This document shows positions 2,778-29,667 of a stretch of 64,000 bases of DNA, piece by piece. Position 1 is the first letter of the stretch; each line of letters opens with the position of its first letter. The translations under genes were made by a program, and so were the position numbers. This DNA comes from Sanguinoderma infundibulare (taxonomy: Eukaryota > Basidiomycota > Agaricomycetes > Polyporales > Polyporaceae): the NCBI GenBank assembly GCA_032821775.1, contig JAVLRN010000015.1:186001-250000 (forward strand), read 5' to 3'. The notes under the pieces are model-generated. The model made no database searches and was not told where the DNA came from. It worked only from the letters and a program-made list of their open reading frames with translations.

Positions 2778-4171
2778 CATTGTTTGTTTGCAATGACTTA
2801 GATAGTGTTGTACCTTGTATTGTTGTGGTTCTGTAGTTTCCGGCGACCCGAATCAGTGCTTGGTATTGTTGCTCACTGCCGCATTGATCCAGAACTCGGA
2901 CTTGAACGACATTGCTTTGAACTGTTGATGGATACCCACTTGGGGCTTTGATCAACCTGCGTCGTTCGAGAGCGACCAAAGTACGCTCGACTACATCGAC
3001 CTGCCCTAAACTGGAAAGCGCCTATCCCCCAAAGCGTCGCGTGGTAGCCTTCGTCTCCACCGGTCACCTACCGTCCTCCTTGTGCTGCACCCCGCTCTGC
3101 TAGATATAGCTCATGAATGCATGAAGCATCACCCGCAAGCGCTGCCAACAGTCGCCACCAGGGTTGAGCAGAAAGGAGGCGTGCCCGGCGCCATGACGGC
3201 AGCGCTCAAAGCCATCGGCAAGGACAGGTTGTCCCCCGATCCAATCATACACTCTACGTATCACAAGAATTGGGTCGCCCGGCCGCACTCCATCCCGTCC
3301 GCCATTCCGTCTTTTCCTCTCCTTCCTTAATAAGTAGGAGTGTCCTGAGTAGTTCCCATGGTCGCAATCATCACGGGCACAGTCTAAATCCCGTTCAGGG
3401 CTGTGATAATAGCTACATCGCTTGATCATAACATCAGCGTTCATCGATCATCTGTCTTCTAAGCATCTGGGATGATCTCGGAATACCTCCAGGGATGAGT
3501 AGGCATGACTCTTGCTGGTCTTTTACTCATGGAACACAGCACACTATTGGGTCTTGATGTAGTCAGGACGGACGAGAAGTGAGATTGCCAAGTAAACACC
3601 TGGGGCCAACAGTTTGAACTGGTGGTTAAGAAATTTGAACTCCACTTCGGTTATTCTTGCCGTTTCGGCCCGTTGGGCGCTAGTTCGTCGCACATTCCAA
3701 CATTGCCCAGCGAGGTCAGTTCACGCCACACTCTAACCATCTTTCTCCTTTCACAAGCTTCCGACCAAGTGGTTCAAGTGGAAAAGGTATTGTGCATTAC
3801 CAGCGATTCGATCAAAGCTTTGGCAAACTGAATGACATATACAGAGTCCCTGTGTTGTCATAGTACGGCCACCGAACACACCCCCGCTCACACACAAGTT
3901 TTCATCGGCCACATCCGCCATGAAACAGTTGCAGAAGAACAACTGACACTGATCGGCTTATTGTGACAACATCCCTCAACGGCGCTGTTGGCCCACGCTC
4001 AGCCGGCCAAGGCACTCTGCATCCGGTAAGCGAAATCTGTTTACACGGAGCACTGGCTCTTTCCGTGCGCGGAATACTCAGTTGCCATGACTCCGACCCG
4101 TGTTGACTTTCCCAATCGATTAGCGCCGTTTCCCCCCATTATCATTCCCACCACCACCGATTCCTCAACAG
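2778..4171. other. Intergenic, mostly no gene seen
   Basis: No credible coding exon is visible. From about 3322 onward the sequence is the start of the inverted duplication and matches 52470 downwards on the opposite strand, so this stretch carries the shared upstream region of the FunK1 gene at 4.2 kb. Confidence 0.6.
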
Positions 4172-20229: not shown

Positions 20230-20437
20230 TGTAAGGATCACATCCTTACTCGGCTCCGGACAGGATTACGTACACGCCCTATATATACCTCCCGCGCCCT
20301 GATATCGCTCCTTCAGTCCCTACTTACGCGATATCAGGTACGCATCCCGCATGTATTCTACTTCAGTCCCTACTTACGCGATATCAGATTCTGTTCACGT
20401 TCCTTGTCAGAGTGTTGGAGATTATCGTCTCCTTCCA
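20230..20437 (+). repeat. 5' LTR
   Basis: 208 bp, TGTAAGGATC...CTCCTTCCA. It has a TATATATA box at about 20280-20287 and an internal direct repeat of about 27 bp (CTTCAGTCCCTACTTACGCG and on) in two copies. It differs from the 3' LTR at three positions only, each a CpG transition. Confidence 0.97.
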
Positions 20438-20889
20438 CTTTTTTTTGAACCTCGAACAGGTCTGCGTCACCGTTCACACAGCGGCTCCCAGCCTGCCCCC
20501 TTCCCGGTCCAACGTCTTACTGGGATAGCCACTCTCGGCTATTGCAGATCCCTGGTCGTGTCACTCAGGGACGCTACGCCGCTTCAGGCGTGCTAACCGA
20601 CGACGCAAATCCCGAGGCCTTGGTGCCATCCCCCGTGGACAGTGAGTCCTCCTCGCTGTCGGTCGTTAGTTCCCTTTCCTCGGTCGTCTCCATCCCGGAC
20701 TCGACGCCTCCCTCCCCGGAACCCGCATATACCGACCCCGACACCGCATATACCCACCTAGACCGCGCATATACCGACCCCGCATCCCAGGCACGCGATC
20801 AGCGCGCATATAGTCACTCTCCCTGCCAATCCGACACCCCAGATTCCTCTTTATCGTCGATTGCATCGTTCCCCGAGATCGCACGCACC

Positions 20890-23367
20890 ATGTCTACCGG
20901 AGAAGCGACTGTTACCATGTGCTCAAAGGCCGCACCCGTCGTCAGTGAAGGTGCGCTCACTCCCGCCGTCATCAACGCTTGGGAGTCCGCCTGCCGGAAG
21001 TTCTTCCAAGACCGGGCGATTCCCCCCAAGACCCAGACATTTAAGTCCTCCATGGGCTTCGAGAACACGGTCCTCCGGATGTGGTTCGACATTTCTGCGT
21101 TCCGATTCGACGGCATGCCGTTCGACAACTTCACCGATGCAGTGCGCCAGCGATTCCTTACCTCTGGTTGGGCTGATGACGTGAAGAAACGCATCATCAA
21201 GACGGACCAACGTGAAGATCAGTCCTTCCTCGACTTCGCTATGGAGATGGACCGCATGAACTCCCTCCTCCTTCCCACGAGGGAATTCTTCGACGACGAC
21301 GGATTACGTCTCCTCCTCACCACAAATGTCTGCCCGAGCTTGGCCATTCTAATTGGCGATGACGCTATCCACGATGAACCCGACTTCATTAAATGGAAGT
21401 CTGCCGTTGCAAAGATCGACGAACGCTGCATGAAGCAGGCCTCGCAGAGCGTCACCACCATCAAGATGCAAGTCCGTGCGCTCCTCGGCACGAACAACGC
21501 CTGCCGCCTGCCGACTCAGACGTCGGGCGGGCGCTCCAGCTACCAAACGAAGCCCCTCCCGCCTCAGCTCACCCTCGATGAACGTCACATCCTCGAAAAC
21601 AACAAGGGCTGCTTCAAGTGTCGCCAGATCAATGTCTTCGACAAATGCACCCACACCTCCCGCAACTGCCCGAACGGGGTCCCAGATGGTACCAACTACG
21701 TCCCGTTGATGACCACATACCCGAAGCTCGCCCCCAACAAGGAGAACGCATGCCCTCCAGCTTGTGTCGCTGCCGTCGTCGAGGCTGAACCCATTGCTGA
21801 CTCTGACGTCGTCAATCACATTGTTGCATCAGTCAGCCATGCCAATTCCCCCTCTGCATACACCACTGGCATTCTCACTGGGTTGAGCAACTCCAAAAGC
21901 TCATATGTTCCTCCTCTCTTTGCTAGTCAAATGTTCCTTTCTGCATGCATCTCCCCATATCCCGATTCCCCTGTATACGACATGCTGATTGACGGTGGCA
22001 CTGGTCCAGTGCTGATTAGGCAGGATGTCACTATCGCGATGGGTGCCCGCCTCTGCAAGCTACCTAAAAAGCATCGTTTGGGAGACATGTGGGGCAATAA
22101 GGACGGAGGCTATGTCGAGAGTGACGAGATGGTGAAGTTCACGGCTACGTTACCTGATCTTTCCTGGACGTCCAGAGTATTGCATGCGCTTGTTGTCGAC
22201 GACCTCATCACCCCTGTAATTCTAGGCAAAAAATGGTTAGAATCGAACTGCATTGTTGAAGACCATGCTGCCCGCTCGCTCGTCGACAAATGCACTGGAT
22301 GCAACTTGCTCAGACCTCCTTCCCCTCCCTCTCCTCCCCTCCCTTCCCCCCATGTCTGCTGCCAGGCTGCACTTGAGGCTCGCACTGCTGAGTGCATGGA
22401 GAGATGTGCCAGCCAGTGCTGCTTCCTGCGCGAGCTTGTGCAGCGTACGGCAGAGCGACACATACATGCGGATGCTTCTGTCATGGATGGGTCTGTGCAC
22501 GCTGCTCATGCCGTTTGCACACGAGTAGAGTTCCTGGCAAGTGTGGAGGCCCTGGGACTCGAAAACGCGGCGATGAAAGCGAAGTATGCTGATCGCTTCC
22601 CTTCTGACATTCCCCACATTTCCCAGATGCCCACAGACGTATATCATCGCTTTGTGCTAAAGGACACCAACATGGTTATCACCTGACGCCAATACAACTG
22701 TCCAAAGAAGTACTGTGAGGTTTGGAAAACTCTCCTTGAGGAACACCTCACTGCTGGGAGACTTCAACCTTCTGACAGCCCATTTGCGTCTCCCGCCTTC
22801 CTCGTACCCAAAACTGATCCCACCGCAAAACTGCACTGGGTCAATGATTATCGTGTCCTCAATTCCAACACCGTCCCGGATATGTGCCTGCTGCCCAAGA
22901 TCAGTGACATCTTGTTAGACTGCGCCAAAGGCAAGATCTGGGGAAAGATTGACATGACTAACTCCTTCTTCCAAACACCAGTCCATCCGGACGATATCAA
23001 ATATACTGCTGTCACTATGCCTTTCGGCCTCTACAAATGGACTGTCATGCCTCAGGGATGTTGCAATGCACCCTCGACCCACCAGCGACGAATGAATGCA
23101 GCCCTGCATCCATACATCGGCAAATTCTGTCACGTCTACATCGACAACATCATCATCTGGTCTCAGTCTCTCGAACAGCATCGCCAGCACGTCGAACTGA
23201 TCCTACAAGCCCTATGAGATGCACACCTATATGCATCCGACAAGAAAACATTGCTCTTTCTACTCGAGGTCGATTTCCTCGGCCATCACATTTCACAATG
23301 GGGAATCGAACCCGATGGCAAAAAAGTAAGCAAAATCCTTGACTGGCCCGCTGATGCGCACCCGACG
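20890..23367 (+). pseudogene. Retrotransposon gag-protease-RT, with stops
   Basis: One frame is open from about 20545 to the insertion at 23368 apart from TGA at 22684 and 23215. I take ATG 20890 (MSTGEATV) as the likely start, though the frame is open upstream through a region of CGCATATACC repeats. A zinc-knuckle-like CFKC...HTSRNC is at about 21610-21670, with unusually long spacing. The aspartic protease site reads MLIDGGTGP where LIDSGAT-like is usual. The RT has FLVPKTDP, WVNDYRVLN, GKIDMTNSFFQTPVHP, MPFGLYKWTVMPQG. The catalytic box reads HVYIDNIIIWS in place of YIDD. The protein would be inactive. Confidence 0.9.
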
Positions 23368-24324
23368 CTTCTGTTTGCAGAAGTCGGTGCGACTACCCCT
23401 TTCAGACAGCGACCGCGACTTCGCACCATGCGACATCGCGGGAGTTCCCGAGTCGCCGATGGCATCGGTGGTCGCGTGACGCACCGACCCTTTGGCACGA
23501 GGCAAAGGCCTAAAACGTCGGTGATCTCCGTCGCCGGCGCGAAGCTCCCGATCGGCCCGAACTGGTGACCACAGCGACCCGGCCCGCCCATCTGCGCCTC
23601 GCGCGTGGCAGCATAGCAGCGGGCCACAAGTTAAGTCGTTCAGCATCTTTACAGTCACATCGCGTGACGGTCTGCGAGTCATCTCTCACTAGTTGGTCTT
23701 GGTGACAGGTATTGGTCACGACCCCCGACTGCGATCGCCGACGACCAGCGACATCGCGTGACCATGTGACGACAAGGCGAGCCGACCCCAAGTCGCACGA
23801 CCGGTCGTGGCCTTGTAATGGTCACTGATGTTCTGATGGGTTTCCGACATGGGTTGTCGCAGGCGCTCATCGCCGCGAGGCAGGCTAGACTATAGTTGTT
23901 GCGCGTAGTTACAGGCTCGATGTACTTAACCCAGTCGACGGCTGTTTGGGCACACAATCTTGGATCCCCCCCACCTTTCACCTCTCATTTCTCCGGCGAG
24001 CGACCGCAACTCGACATCGTCCTCCTCTGGGTATAGCTGGTGACTGCGATTGCGACTTGCGACAGCGACAGTGACCCCCGACTGTGACCTTGCGACGGCG
24101 ACTCATCACGCAACTTATACCACGACTTTCGTCCTCCAGCTTCGTTTGACTTTTCTCCCCTCTCCCCGGCACTTGTTGCGATCGCAACCAAAGGGAACTC
24201 GAGACCGTACTCGCCCTCCACACCGGCGACGTCGCTCCGACCTCGCCTCCCTCAGCCCTCGGTCGTCCTGACTGTCCACAGGCCCTGGGATAGTGTATCA
24301 CCGCCCCCCGATCGGCCTCCGACG
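23362..24324. mobile_element. 957-bp insertion in pol, unclassified
   Basis: RT sequence stops at HPT (about 23367) and resumes at MFLGLIRYIASFLPNL (24330 on). CCGACG occurs at both edges (23362-23367 and 24319-24324), a possible 6-bp target duplication. No terminal inverted repeats or coding frame are recognisable; the ends carry GCGA-rich sequence. Removing 957 bp leaves a one-base frame mismatch, so edges or a later indel are uncertain. Confidence 0.6.
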
Positions 24325-25100
24325 TTCGCATGTTCTTAGGTCTCATCCGCTACATAGCCTCCTTTCTTCCGAACCTCGCCGAATACACTCATATTTTGAA
24401 TATGCTGACAATGAAAGAGGCAGGGGAGTGGTGGCCAGGCTGGAATGATACTCATCAGGCAGCGTTTGACCACATCAAATGCCTGGTGTGCAGTCGAGAA
24501 TGCCTAACAGTCGTCAATCACAATGCCCTCCACGACAACGGCATTTTCGGCTCCTGCAATGCCAGTGATTTCTGCACAGGTGCCATTCTCTCTTTTGGAC
24601 CGACGCTCGAAACAGCATGACCTGTCGCCTTCGACTCCAATCCCCTCACTGGCGCTGAGCTCAATTATCCCATCCACGAGAAAGAACTACTTGCCATCGT
24701 CTGCGCTCTCGAAAAGTGGCATGTCGACCTTCTCGGAGTACCCTTCACAGTTTACACAGATCATCGCACCCTAGAGAATTTCGAGCAGCAGAAATCTCTC
24801 TCCTGATGACAACAGTGCTGGCAGGAATTCCTGGCACAATATGACTTCAAGATCAAGTACGTTCCGGGTGACACCAACATCGCTGCTGATGCGCTCTCCC
24901 GCACACCTTCCTCACATGACAGCATTGCTACTGTCATGTTCATCCGTGACGGTTCACATGCGTTGTGTGAATGCCCCAACTCCGTACCCGCTGTTGCGAC
25001 CATTCCAGCTTCACTGTGCGTTGCCTCGGACCTCCGGTGGCTGAATGCAATCCGTGAAGGATACAAGAAGGACAAATGCTCTGGAAAAACCTTCCCAGGC
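24325..25100 (+). pseudogene. Retrotransposon RT end and RNase H, with stops
   Basis: Continues pol with FLGLIRYIASFLPNLAEYT, then RNase H: FGSCNASDFCTGAILSFG, ELNYPIHEKELLAIVCALEKW, VYTDHRTLENF, YVPGDTNIAADALSR. TGA codons at 24618, 24804 and 24807 each stand where CGA (Arg) is expected. Coding ends at about 25100 (KTFPG), where the AT-rich insertion begins. Confidence 0.85.
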
Positions 25101-25229
25101 TAATTTGGTGGAAATACAACTAAAAAGTAGGAATTAGTTCTAAATAAGAAGCAATAGTGAGTTAGGGAACATTAGCCTAACTGCTCTCTAAGATTAGGGA
25201 GGTCCCCTTTTTTTTAATTTTTGCCTTAG

Positions 25230-25271
25230 AAGGATTAGGGATAAAGTAGCACTACTTTATCCCTAATCCTT
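25230..25271. repeat. Perfect 20-bp palindrome near left end of nested element
   Basis: Arms 25230-25249 and 25252-25271 are perfect reverse complements with a 2-bp spacer. In RNA or single-stranded DNA it would form a strong hairpin. Confidence 0.9.
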
Positions 25272-25399
25272 CCTAATGGTTGCTAATGCAGGACTACAGG
25301 TTCAGTTGCTGGCTGTCCAAAACTTGCGCACACCATGTAGAAGATAGACATGAAAAATGTATATTAAATGTAACTAATACATTGCTGTAGCTACAGAGA

Positions 25400-26600
25400 A
25401 GCCAGGTGAAGCATTGACTCCTCTAGATGTTATAATCCGAGAGAGTGCGACCACCCGAGAGTGAGAGTCCGAGAACAAGAGTGAACCACGACACCGCGGC
25501 CAACAAGCGTGGAGGATGCGCGTGTCCGGGCATGCTGCTACAGTACCCCGAGGTGATAGTCGCGCCCGGGAGAAGTCGAATGGTGGCGTACCAGATGCTG
25601 CCCTGGGTGGACGACGATGGCCGTGGGGGTGGGCACCATTGTCATCGCCGGTGGTCTTCACCTCGATGAGCATGTCCTCGAGGCTGCTGGCGGAGGCACG
25701 GGAATGTGAATGACTGCGGGAGGATCATCCGCGAGAGGTTGAGCGGCCCCGGCGGCGCGAACGATGATTATCGGGGTACGCATAACGAGGATCATCAGCG
25801 CGGGAGTGGGAGGGGTGCAGGTACTGCTGGTAATGGGGATGGAGAGCGGCGGCAGCGGTAGCGTGGACTGTGAGCTGAGGTGACTGGTAGGGGGTATGGC
25901 CATTTGAAAGGTACGCTGCATGAGGAGAGTGTGACGGCAGAAGTCAGCAAAATGATAGCATGTCAAAGACGACCGTGGTCGTTGGCCCACAACCACCTCC
26001 AAGCTTTGCAGAGGAACGCTCACCTCGACCATTCCCAAAGGGGAACGTACGATTTTCCGACTAGACGACTACGTACCGAAAGACTGTACCGCCTGGCGCG
26101 GCTACGGTCATCCTCATGGTCGCTGCGGGGCCGCTTGGCAGAAGGGGGTGCGCCTGGACCGGAAAGAGCCCCGTTGTAGCCCGCATCCATGCGTCCGGCA
26201 CAGGGACGCACACTATCAGACGTTGCGCTCGGCAGTGGGGGCAGGGGGATGGAGGGAAAGTGCTGAGAGGTGCTGAGCCTATGCGAGGAGGTACGGGAGA
26301 CATGGGCCCAGGCAGATGGGATCTGGGGGAGCTGGATGGCGAAGTGGACAGCATTGGGGACGTAGAAGGTGTTTTGCAAGGAGGGGATGGTACTCACCGG
26401 ACAAGGGGCCCTCCGCCCTCTGCAATGAGACGCGAGAATTGGGATCTGGTGTCGGATGCGCAGAGTTCGAGGGCGGCGAAGTAGTGGTCGAGCTTCAGCC
26501 AAGATTCCTGGAGCATATGAAGGCGCGCGGTGAGGGACACCTGGGGGGCGACCTGCGATGCCTCAGGCATGGTGAGGAGGGATGCGCTCAAGAGGAGAGA
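25400..26600 (-). pseudogene. Captured host-like coding sequence, minus strand
   Basis: Several minus-strand frames could be exons: MSASLLTMPEASQ with ARLHMLQESWLKLDHYFAAL (26591-26394), VPNAVHFAIQLPQ with KRPRSDHEDDRSRARR (to about 26020), then LHHYQQYLHPSHSRADDPR and a Pro/Arg-rich part to about 25374. Low-complexity Ser/Pro/Arg and a basic acidic cluster suggest a regulatory protein, but I recognise no domain and exon joins are not certain. Confidence 0.35.
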
Positions 26601-26617
26601 GACGACGTGGCGAGTGG

Positions 26618-26707
26618 GAGGAGAGGCCGAAGTCTTAGACGCTCAATTCGGTGGCACGCCACCTGTGGCACCACCGAATCGAGCGTCTAAGACTTCGGCC
26701 TCTCCTC
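26618..26707. repeat. 37-bp inverted repeat between divergent captured genes
   Basis: Arms 26618-26654 and 26671-26707 match with a single mismatch around a 16-bp loop. The flanks share a further CCCACTCGCC-like stretch, so the inverted repeat may once have been longer. Confidence 0.9.
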
Positions 26708-26910
26708 GTCTCTCTTCCCACTCGCCCCGTCGCCATCCTCGTCCGACCGTCTTCAAAAGCTCCTGCAGCCTGTCCTGTGTCGTCTCCCCGCTGCAGCTGC
26801 TCCCCTCTCACATCGTGTCAACTACCTTCCGCTTTCGACAGCACTCTCCAGGTGAGTTCGCGCGTTGTCAATGTGCTGCAGTGAGGACGGACTACTGATC
26901 GCGATCGGTC

Positions 26911-27576
26911 TTGTATCAGCCCAATGATGTTTACCCAGGCTTGTACCAGGTTCCCGAGGGCGCCGGGATGGTGGGTGGTCCTCTCCTTCATGCGCTCAGC
27001 ATTCCGTCGCACGACGCGAGCGTGATGTCCCCGCAAGGACTCATGTCGCCGTCCACCGCCATCGTTTCCAGCCTCGTGTCCCCAGCGGATTCGTACCCAC
27101 CAACGCTCTGCTCGCCCGCGTCCTCGCATAGTGGTCCTTTCACACCTGCCGACGTGCTCCGGATGATGCAGCTCTCCGTTCTGTAGGAGGACGTCTCGGA
27201 GGGCCACGAAGCCGACAACGAGGTGAGTGAGATGCCGTTCGTGTTCTGGCCTGCGGAGACCCTCTGGGCAAACATGGAGGGCCTCATGCCGGAAGACTTC
27301 AACCTCGGGTCGATCCCGCCCGTCGAGCTAGGCCGAGCGCAGTTCGAAGCGATGCCGCAGCCAAACGCCGTCGACACTGCAGTGTACGGCGAGTGGGGGC
27401 TCGTGCCGTTTGCCGACGAGGAGCCCACTTGCGCCGAGGAATACAACGCCGCGTGGCAGGAAGGTTACGTCCCGCCTGAAGAGTACAACTATGACGACGC
27501 GTCTGCAATGACACCATCCGCCTCGGGCCAGGACGGGTTCCAGGGGATGTATGCGCATGATCCTATGAACTGGTAA
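26911..27576 (+). pseudogene. Captured host-like coding sequence, plus strand
   Basis: A frame from about 26911 reads VYPGLYQVPEGAG, LMSPSTAIVSSLVSPADSYP, FTPADVLRMMQLSVL, is cut by TAG at about 27184, then resumes EDVSEGHEADNEVSEMPFVF through an acidic Tyr/Glu-rich region to a stop at 27576. It resembles the disordered activation region of a fungal transcription factor, but no DNA-binding domain is visible. The same frame on both sides of the TAG suggests one former gene with a point mutation or a missed intron. Confidence 0.4.
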
Positions 27577-28091
27577 CAACGCTGTTGGCTCACACGGGCG
27601 TGGGTCGATGCGACTGCTCAGACTCTTCAGGACACTGTATAAAATTTTATTGCATCACACACTCACCCAACTCCCCCCTCTTCCCCCACCTTCCATGTCT
27701 TCGCTCATTGCATGCTACGCCACCCTCACACCACCCCTCTCCTTTCCTCTGCGACATCCCCATTTCCTCTTGTTCTTCTTCTTGTGTCTTTACAATCTGT
27801 ATTGTCAGGCTGTAGTATGTACATGAAATATATAATGTTTGCATCCAAATGGATAAGCTGAGGCTGAGGGGTGATCAAACTTCCTCAAGTAGTGCAAAAG
27901 TAGTGCTGAGTACTACAACTACTGTTTCTGATAGTGCATATTATTATAATTGTAAAGATGTCCCTGCATGTTAGGACAATATTAGCACTAATTAGATCAA
28001 ATTAGACCCAATTAGATTGATAGTAGCTCCATTAGATCATATTTGTACTAAATGCATTGAATTAGCTTGGGATGTTTTTCCTGATGGGGCT

Positions 28092-29434
28092 TATTCCGCT
28101 GCACACATGACTCGATGGGACACTTCAGCTTCGACAAATCCTATGCTTTCCTCCGTGATGCATACTACTGGCCTCGGATGCGGAAGGAACTCGCCTGCAT
28201 GTACATTCCCTCCTGCAATGAATGTCAATGTAATAAAAGCCTCACCAAGAAGCCTGCAGGTCCCATGCATCCCCTTCCCACCCCAGATGCACGCACGAAG
28301 TCGATTGCAATCGACTTCATAGGCCCCTTACCTGACGACGACGGGTTCAACTGCATAGCGACTGTCACTGATCGCATCGGCACAGACTTATGCCTGATTC
28401 CTACACGAACTGATGTCACGGCAGAAGATTTCGCGGCTCAATTTTTTGACTACTGGTACTGCGAGAACGGTCTCCCGGCTGACATCGTATCTGACTGCAA
28501 CAAACTATTCGTCTCTGCCTTCTGGAGGGCACTCCACACACTTGCCGGTGTCAAACTCAAGATGTCCACCACATATCACCCCCAGATGGACAGAGCCTCT
28601 GAACACACTAACAAGACAGTCGTACAAGCTTTACACTACCACGTCGGCCGTGATCAACGGGGATGGGCTTGATCCCTTCCCCATGTTTGCTTCGCGATCA
28701 TGTCTGCCATCAACGATTCAACGGGCTTTTCTCACTTTCACCTCCACCTTGGTCGTCAACTGTGTGTCCTCCCTCCCCTCTTGGACGCAAATGTCGCTGA
28801 CACCCTCTGTGACTTCCCCAACACTGCACAATTGGCTGCAGATACCATTCGTTGCATGGACACCGATGTACTAGAAGCTCAAGACATCCTTCATGCTGCC
28901 AAGTTGGCACAGATGTCAGCCGCGAACCGTGGATGCTCTGAGGACCCTGCATACCATGTAGGCGACTCGGTAATGCTCTCAACCCTCCACTGACAACAGG
29001 CGTACATGCGACGTGGTGACAACCGAGTTGCCAAGTTTATCGTAAGATATGACGGTCCTTACAAAATTATCCGCGCATTCCCCGAAGCTTCTGTCTATAC
29101 CCTCGCTCTCCCCTCCTCCATGAACATATTCCCTACTTTCCATACCTCACTTCTAAAACCATTCCTCCCTAACAACAATTCCCTTTTCCCTTCTCGTGCA
29201 TTCAAACCCCCTCCTCCCATAATTACCGATGATGGTGTCGAGGAACAAGTTGTCGAGCGCATCATAGACCATCAGCGCCGCGGCCGTGGTTACCGCTTCC
29301 TTGTTCATTGGAAAGATTTCCCCGACTCACATGATTCCTGGCTCCCGGGTTCTGTTTGCCGTGATCTCGCTGCATTGGACACTTATGTACAACAAAATCC
29401 AGAACTCCTAGATGACTTTCCCCCCGTACTGTAA
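28092..29434 (+). pseudogene. Retrotransposon integrase and chromodomain, with stops
   Basis: One frame with TGA at 28670 and 28991. HDSMGHF and CNEC form the zinc-binding N-terminus. The DDE core is present as AIDFIGPLP, VSDCNKLF and RASEHTNK. The C-terminus has YMRRGDNRVAKFIVRYDGP, and a chromodomain at about residues 75-130 of the last piece (VERIIDHQRRGRGYRFLVHW, KDFPDSHDSWLPG). Several Arg codons read Cys or His, e.g. SDCN where SDRD is usual. The gene ends at 29434, about 25 bp before the 3' LTR. Confidence 0.9.
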
Positions 29435-29445
29435 TGTTTTTCTTC

Positions 29446-29459
29446 AGAGGGTGGAAGGG
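29446..29459 (+). other. Polypurine tract of retrotransposon
   Basis: AGAGGGTGGAAGGG ends exactly at the first base of the 3' LTR, the normal place for plus-strand priming. Confidence 0.85.
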
Positions 29460-29667
29460 TGTAAGGATCACATCCTTACTCGGCTCTGGACAGGATTACG
29501 TACACGCCCTATATATACCTCCCGCGCCCTGATATCGCTCCTTCAGTCCCTACTTACGCGATATCAGGTACGCATCCCGCATGTATTCTACTTCAGTCCC
29601 TACTTATGCGATATCAGATTCTGTTCACGTTCCTTGTCAGAGTGTTGGAGATTATCATCTCCTTCCA
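29460..29667 (+). repeat. 3' LTR
   Basis: 208 bp; differs from the 5' LTR by C/T, C/T and G/A changes, all at CpG sites and all in the deaminated state here. Confidence 0.97.

Follow-up and report, generated by a model that had tools for sequence, protein, structure and literature searches.

The Plavaka family of transposons is related to CACTA. In the available sections of one account, Plavaka and PlavakaB DNA transposons are placed in the CMCT clade, and PlavakaB is characterized by target duplications of 2 or 3 bp and termini of the form CATCA..TGATG (PMC12730594). The same sections describe TET/JBP dioxygenase genes in Plavaka elements and mention no capture of other host fragments (PMC12730594). 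Models put forward for the capture of host DNA by transposons include gap filling with template switching, in the available portion of one report (PMC8277862), and the joint mobilisation of neighbouring insertions, in that of another (PMC8903248). The window analysed here is a stretch of 64,000 nucleotides from the fungus Sanguinoderma infundibulare, and the genome searched was the same assembly (48.9 Mb, 87 contigs). Very probably, one element within the window is a Pack-type DNA transposon, non-autonomous and able to capture genes, that depends for its movement on a Plavaka transposase supplied in trans, for example by a second element at C2:730758-742807.

The Plavaka-type element occupies 25079..28086 on the plus strand (3008 bp), with its ends placed by aligned copies and their 2-bp duplications. 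The original prediction had put an insertion of about 3 kb at 25101..28090; the size holds, whereas the ends, once copies are compared, fall at 25079 and 28086. In all aligned copies the shared sequence begins with CTCTGG on the left and finishes with CCTGATG on the right, and the flanks differ. The terminal inverted repeats are imperfect and about 30 bp long, the left (25079..25110, plus strand) starting CTCTGGAAAAACC and the right (28055..28086, minus strand) having TGATG at the end. Broader ends bearing ATTAG-type subterminal repeats cover 25079..25393 and 27884..28086 (both plus strand) and are matched in 33/33 and 27/33 other complete copies, respectively. The motif ATTAG or CTAAT occurs nine times in the left 330 bp and seven times in the right 240 bp; the 2438-bp interior has none. 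The ends are plainly AT-rich and the interior GC-rich, as had been noted from the sequence at the outset, and the inverted subterminal motifs remarked upon then are the terminal inverted repeats. Inside the left end is a hairpin with perfect 21-nt arms (25229..25272) that recurs in other copies.

An exact 2-bp target duplication flanks 29 of 34 complete short copies, and a 3-bp duplication flanks 0/34. When the boundary is shifted by up to four bases on either side, only 0-7 of the 34 copies show a duplication at the 80 other offset pairs. The window copy is among the five with an inexact duplication, having TG at 25077..25078 and GG at 28087-28088. It sits in the pol region of a host LTR retrotransposon (20230..29667, plus strand), whose LTRs at 20230-20437 and 29460-29667, 208 bp each and 99% identical, enclose the element as the original prediction of nesting implied; GGAGC flanks the retrotransposon on both sides. 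Upstream of the element, Pfam finds RVT_1. The integrase expected beside it is represented by Integrase_H2C2, which starts just downstream, with an rve match below the cut-off. From this order of reverse transcriptase before integrase we take the host to be Ty3-like. A related retrotransposon, 75% identical across the left flank, is uninterrupted at the insertion site, and relative to it 108 bp of pol are absent between the flanks of the window copy. The inexact duplication of this copy is best explained by a deletion that came with or after insertion. The same retrotransposon contains at 23822-24304, within a longer insertion, a repeat with about 39 other genomic matches at 82-97% identity (40 of 100 candidates scored; matches up to about 400 bp), which looks like a solo LTR from another family.

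Three other full-length copies of the element, all uninterrupted, are located at C10:1051979 (99%), C2:3255063 (96%) and C12:2345455 (93%). A fourth at C5:2801682 (L012, 99%) is broken by an insertion of about 1 kb; that insertion interrupts its HMG cargo, described below, and contains an 81% relative of the 23822-24304 repeat. The search for further copies of the ends, which had been proposed as a check, fixed both the boundaries and the 2-bp duplication. At up to three mismatches, the end patterns gave 70 left and 71 right genomic matches, and reversed control patterns gave none. Pairing of ends less than 20 kb apart yields 58 elements, of which 52 are short (2.7-5.1 kb) and 6 are long (10.9-16.3 kb). 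The family therefore has at least 52 short paired copies. At least two of the long pairs hold LTR-like matches about 10.7 kb apart, so these are probably short elements with nested retrotransposons. Statistics on short copies come from 34 of the 52 paired elements, the first chosen by similarity to the window and the next 20 taken in contig order; they fall into 22 interior clusters.

The superfamily, which the original prediction considered not evident, can be named from a larger relative. Among 40 stretches in the genome that match the Plavaka transposase family PF18759, one (C2:737507-738184; ORF E 4.5e-81) lies between matching ends in the 12,050-bp element at C2:730758-742807 (L049), the one transposase-bearing element with matching ends that was read. 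Another PF18759 stretch is found inside a 22.8-kb end pairing on C16. The window element resembles the 12-kb element over its left 79 bp (87%) and right 122 bp (80%), and the two share an inverted 262-bp piece of the gene termed REG (85%). The 2-bp duplications, exact in 29 of 34 copies, agree with PlavakaB, as does the right terminus, since all 14 copies compared end in CCTGATG. The left terminus is unlike the CATCA of PlavakaB, being CTCTGG in 14/14 paired copies compared and CTCTAG in the transposase-bearing element. Because of this mismatch, the family is named Plavaka-type, nearest to PlavakaB, rather than a strict PlavakaB member. One ORF of the 12-kb element (L049:8011-9198) carries, just downstream of the transposase domain, 293 bp of REG (donor 1983-2275) in sense and in an open frame. 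A transposase origin for this REG-like stretch was considered and set aside; the reverse direction, from host gene to Plavaka ORF, is likelier given the free-standing gene at L016.

No Pfam family was found in the seven interior ORFs of the window element. In other members, the 14 Pfam families detected among 115 ORFs of 20 clusters include no transposase. With donor genes elsewhere in the genome and a multi-copy family, these results bear out the earlier view of a gene-capturing non-autonomous element. Movement would be by cut and paste, with a Plavaka transposase acting in trans on the element ends. Host DNA may have been gained through template switching or gap repair, or through joint mobilisation of neighbouring insertions, and each capture could then have been amplified as its own subfamily.

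The left cargo of the window element is a captured REG fragment (25485..26529, minus strand) from a donor on C3 (L016). It aligns in two stretches, at 90% (donor 2244-1789) and 89% (donor 1731-1272) DNA identity, separated by 132 bp in the window versus 57 bp in the donor that cannot be aligned. The 57 bp of the donor are probably an intron, introns being named here from reading frames and splice-like sites rather than from transcripts. Fragments of REG are present in 22 of 34 short elements, representing 11 clusters, and are always in the left arm on the minus strand. Within the pieces scanned, REG has no Pfam domain above the cut-off. Fourteen protein relatives were found among 7994 candidates scored, and the three that are named are hypothetical proteins of Trametes versicolor, Grifola frondosa and Infundibulicybe gibba; to call REG a "regulatory" protein is an impression only. 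In three elements (L042, L043 and L048, at C4:521953, C4:863849 and C6:339048), donor stretch 1308-1650 is fused to 3101-3825 at a single point of the element; this reads as an internal deletion within the captured gene, and the second stretch extends past the last long ORF of the donor. Elsewhere, REG-like fragments at 275612, 288116 and 300620 on C18 are spaced by exactly 12,504 bp, which suggests a tandem segmental array.

The right cargo (26811..27770, plus strand) is the captured 3' part of an HMG-box gene, 92.9% identical to its donor on C2 (L013). It comprises the end of one exon, an intron, the last exon and part of the 3' UTR; the HMG box (PF00505), which Pfam detects in the donor, is absent. 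HMG fragments occur in 7 of 34 short elements, all in the right arm on the plus strand. The search for donors in the same genome, carried out with DNA, thus recovered two different host genes, at 89-93% identity. Two divergent captured coding regions had been foreseen correctly, whereas the single regulatory-like source assumed for them gives way to L016 and L013. Both copies of the HMG cargo that were compared have an in-frame stop, and since stops interrupt both cargoes of the window copy, a full-length protein from either is not expected. Many of the differences from the donors are C-to-T or G-to-A, amounting to 49 of 93 changes in the REG cargo of the window copy and 44 of 59 in its HMG cargo (32 of the 44 at CpG), and to 93 of 105 in the HMG cargo of the minus-strand copy on C12 (70 at CpG). 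Judged by base changes, such an excess would fit methylated repeats if the donor retains the older state.

Other members carry other host genes. When 115 of the 199 ORFs of at least 115 aa from 20 clusters were scanned, seven host-domain matches exceeded the Pfam cut-off, in five clusters other than that of the window. They are Ldh_1_C of malate dehydrogenase (L036), Ribosomal_L1 and TBP in opposite arms of one element (L035), Tudor-knot (L041), Sugar_tr twice (L038 and L028) and Plug_translocon, the Sec61 plug, by a 15-residue match (L028). Matches below the cut-off were left uncounted: SRF-TF, which is MADS-like (L033, L044, L030), Histone (L032), Cpn60 (L028), OST3/6 (L039), RavA_C (L040) and SlmA-like (L035). 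Matches to TSKS, TM_ErbB1 and HeLo were traced to no member and are likely spurious.

All seven host-domain pieces and both window cargoes point outward from the middle of their elements. Since 81 of the 115 scanned ORFs are outward, seven out of seven corresponds to a p of about 0.09 on that baseline. In 21 of 22 clusters, GC skew changes from positive on the left of the centre to negative on its right. Matches of modules between clusters number 272 in the same arm on the same strand, 28 in the other arm and inverted, 1 in the other arm on the same strand and 0 in the same arm inverted. About four modules account for the 28, and the same pattern would arise if an entire interior were inverted. 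For three clusters with no recognised centre, the midpoint was used in the module, GC-skew and ORF-orientation counts, and the lone match in the other arm on the same strand is between two midpoint-centred elements. A codon-based strand test was first run with the donors in the training set and then repeated without them and with shuffles. In the repeat, 38/38 arms were outward-positive, as were 38/38 base-shuffled arms; the test was for that reason not used as proof of outward coding. Strong windows in this test, outward to inward, were 30:1 (left) and 41:2 (right) in real arms versus 5-14:0 and 9-15:0 in shuffled ones. Taken overall, the statistics on outward cargo orientation are suggestive, not conclusive. 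A layout may be proposed from them in which a palindrome in the middle separates host fragments that are without their 5' ends and point away from it on either side.

This palindrome, of about 150 bp (26592..26743), is common to many family members, and its arms in the window element are near-perfect inverted copies. At up to three mismatches, the arm motif has 81 genomic matches, 66 of them inside paired elements, and the reversed control has none; several of the 15 matches outside paired elements adjoin unpaired copies. It is present in 40 of 52 short elements at relative positions of 0.40-0.72 and missing at this threshold from the other 12. Among 160-bp folds of the interior, the most stable is central in all 22 clusters (0.44-0.60); in several its lead over the next best is small, and in L030 it does not coincide with the motif. 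Of 30 left arms examined, 13 have a leader reading CACC-(ATG or ACG)-CC.GAGGC, or nearly so, six of them with ATG. In the window element, the ATG of this CACC-ATG leader runs in frame into REG to form a short chimeric reading frame (26394..26570, minus strand; 58 aa, then a stop). In three elements (L040, L031 and L045), the palindrome matches better in reverse orientation. In L040, the one compared, a right-arm module recurs, inverted, in the left arms of L030, L033 and L044, within or next to the reading frame whose MADS-like match is below the cut-off.

The palindrome may be a putative two-sided promoter with a leader, a tentative assignment that falls somewhat short of an even chance. It is slightly favoured over the idea that the palindrome is the scar of a head-to-head joining, in which two half-elements, each an end with its cargo, would have been united by a hairpin or template switch, leaving outward polarity as a by-product and no promoter. 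Near-perfect inverted arms, a central stablest fold in 22 of 22 clusters and modules that occur in either arm, inverted, are all what such a joining could leave behind. The similarity of the palindrome across many subfamilies speaks against it; this evidence is weak, as changes on both sides affect 7 of 41 consensus pairs among 15 aligned clusters (of 22) with a covariation term of 0. A bare scar would also have no need of the CACC leader. The scar is less likely than not, only a little behind the putative promoter. Taken further, the promoter reading would make the palindrome a putative portable two-sided promoter with a start-codon leader, and the element a double gene-trap cassette that keeps only outward host fragments lacking their own 5' ends, which would be transcribed into chimeric RNAs that terminate in captured 3' regions. 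This fuller scheme is possible but rather unlikely.

How the fragments were acquired bears on a further alternative, in which they would have been reverse-transcribed from transcripts. The HMG fragment lacks a 5' part and reaches the 3' UTR, and the REG piece of L042 extends to donor position 3825, past the last long ORF of the gene, both of which could be expected of an RNA intermediate. The HMG intron is kept, however, so the captured source was genomic DNA rather than a spliced message; the HMG fragment does not end in a poly-A tract on its 3' side, and REG matches run unbroken across the presumed intron of the donor in five elements (L017, L026, L027, L028 and L047). Capture through RNA is therefore quite improbable. 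Helitrons move by rolling circle and have neither terminal inverted repeats nor target duplications. Rolling-circle capture by an element with 5' TC and 3' CTRR-like ends could appeal to first bases that are readable as TC and an end readable as CTGA, and gene capture by fungal Helitrons is known from the available text of one report (PMC4289320). Such an origin is barely credible, since 29/34 copies have an exact 2-bp duplication, at one boundary only, the termini are inverted repeats, and matching ends elsewhere enclose a Plavaka transposase. The case of ordinary chromosomal sequence lying between a pair of unrelated solo fragments, which the original prediction had linked to ends that are not repeated elsewhere, is a negligible prospect, as the ends recur throughout the genome, all 3008 bp are found together elsewhere at 93-99% identity and in different surroundings, and nothing was found in favour of it.

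With known donors and fixed ends, the Plavaka-type family indicates that Plavaka transposons can spawn a sizeable gene-fragment-shuffling family in a fungus. Its shared plan of a central palindrome and outward cargo makes the acquisition and orientation of host DNA by Pack-type elements testable. If the gene-trap scheme were true, the family would be a source of novel fusion genes, arising two at a time, or of small RNAs that target the donor genes, among which are several for core transcription and housekeeping proteins.

Compared with Plavaka and PlavakaB, the family has in common the 2-bp duplications, the right terminus TGATG and a 12-kb PF18759 partner with matching ends in the same genome, whereas the window element differs by its CTCTGG left terminus, the lack of its own transposase and its host gene fragments. 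The available text on Pack-TYPE elements of plants (PMC8903248) and Pack-TIRs of animals (PMC8277862) describes non-autonomous elements with terminal inverted repeats, target duplications and one or more host gene fragments. The window element likewise has no transposase of its own, donors elsewhere, inverted repeats with duplications, and multiple copies; it differs from those descriptions in its fungal host, Plavaka-type ends, shared central palindrome and two-sided outward cargo. Transduplication in fungi by hAT and Tc1/mariner elements (PMC3538342; for hAT, PMC6710886) is similar in that DNA transposons amplify captured genes. In the portions of those reports available, each family has a histone H3-like gene or an ORF, whereas here many fragments share one frame. 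The Helitrons of Pleurotus ostreatus offer a parallel for gene capture in a basidiomycete, as far as the accessible text describes them (PMC4289320). Among the reports listed by a full-text literature search, which covered few subscription papers, none was seen on Plavaka elements that capture gene fragments or on the two-sided layout. Gene capture by transposons with terminal inverted repeats is known in plants, animals and fungi; the part that appears to be new is capture by Plavaka together with the two-sided layout.
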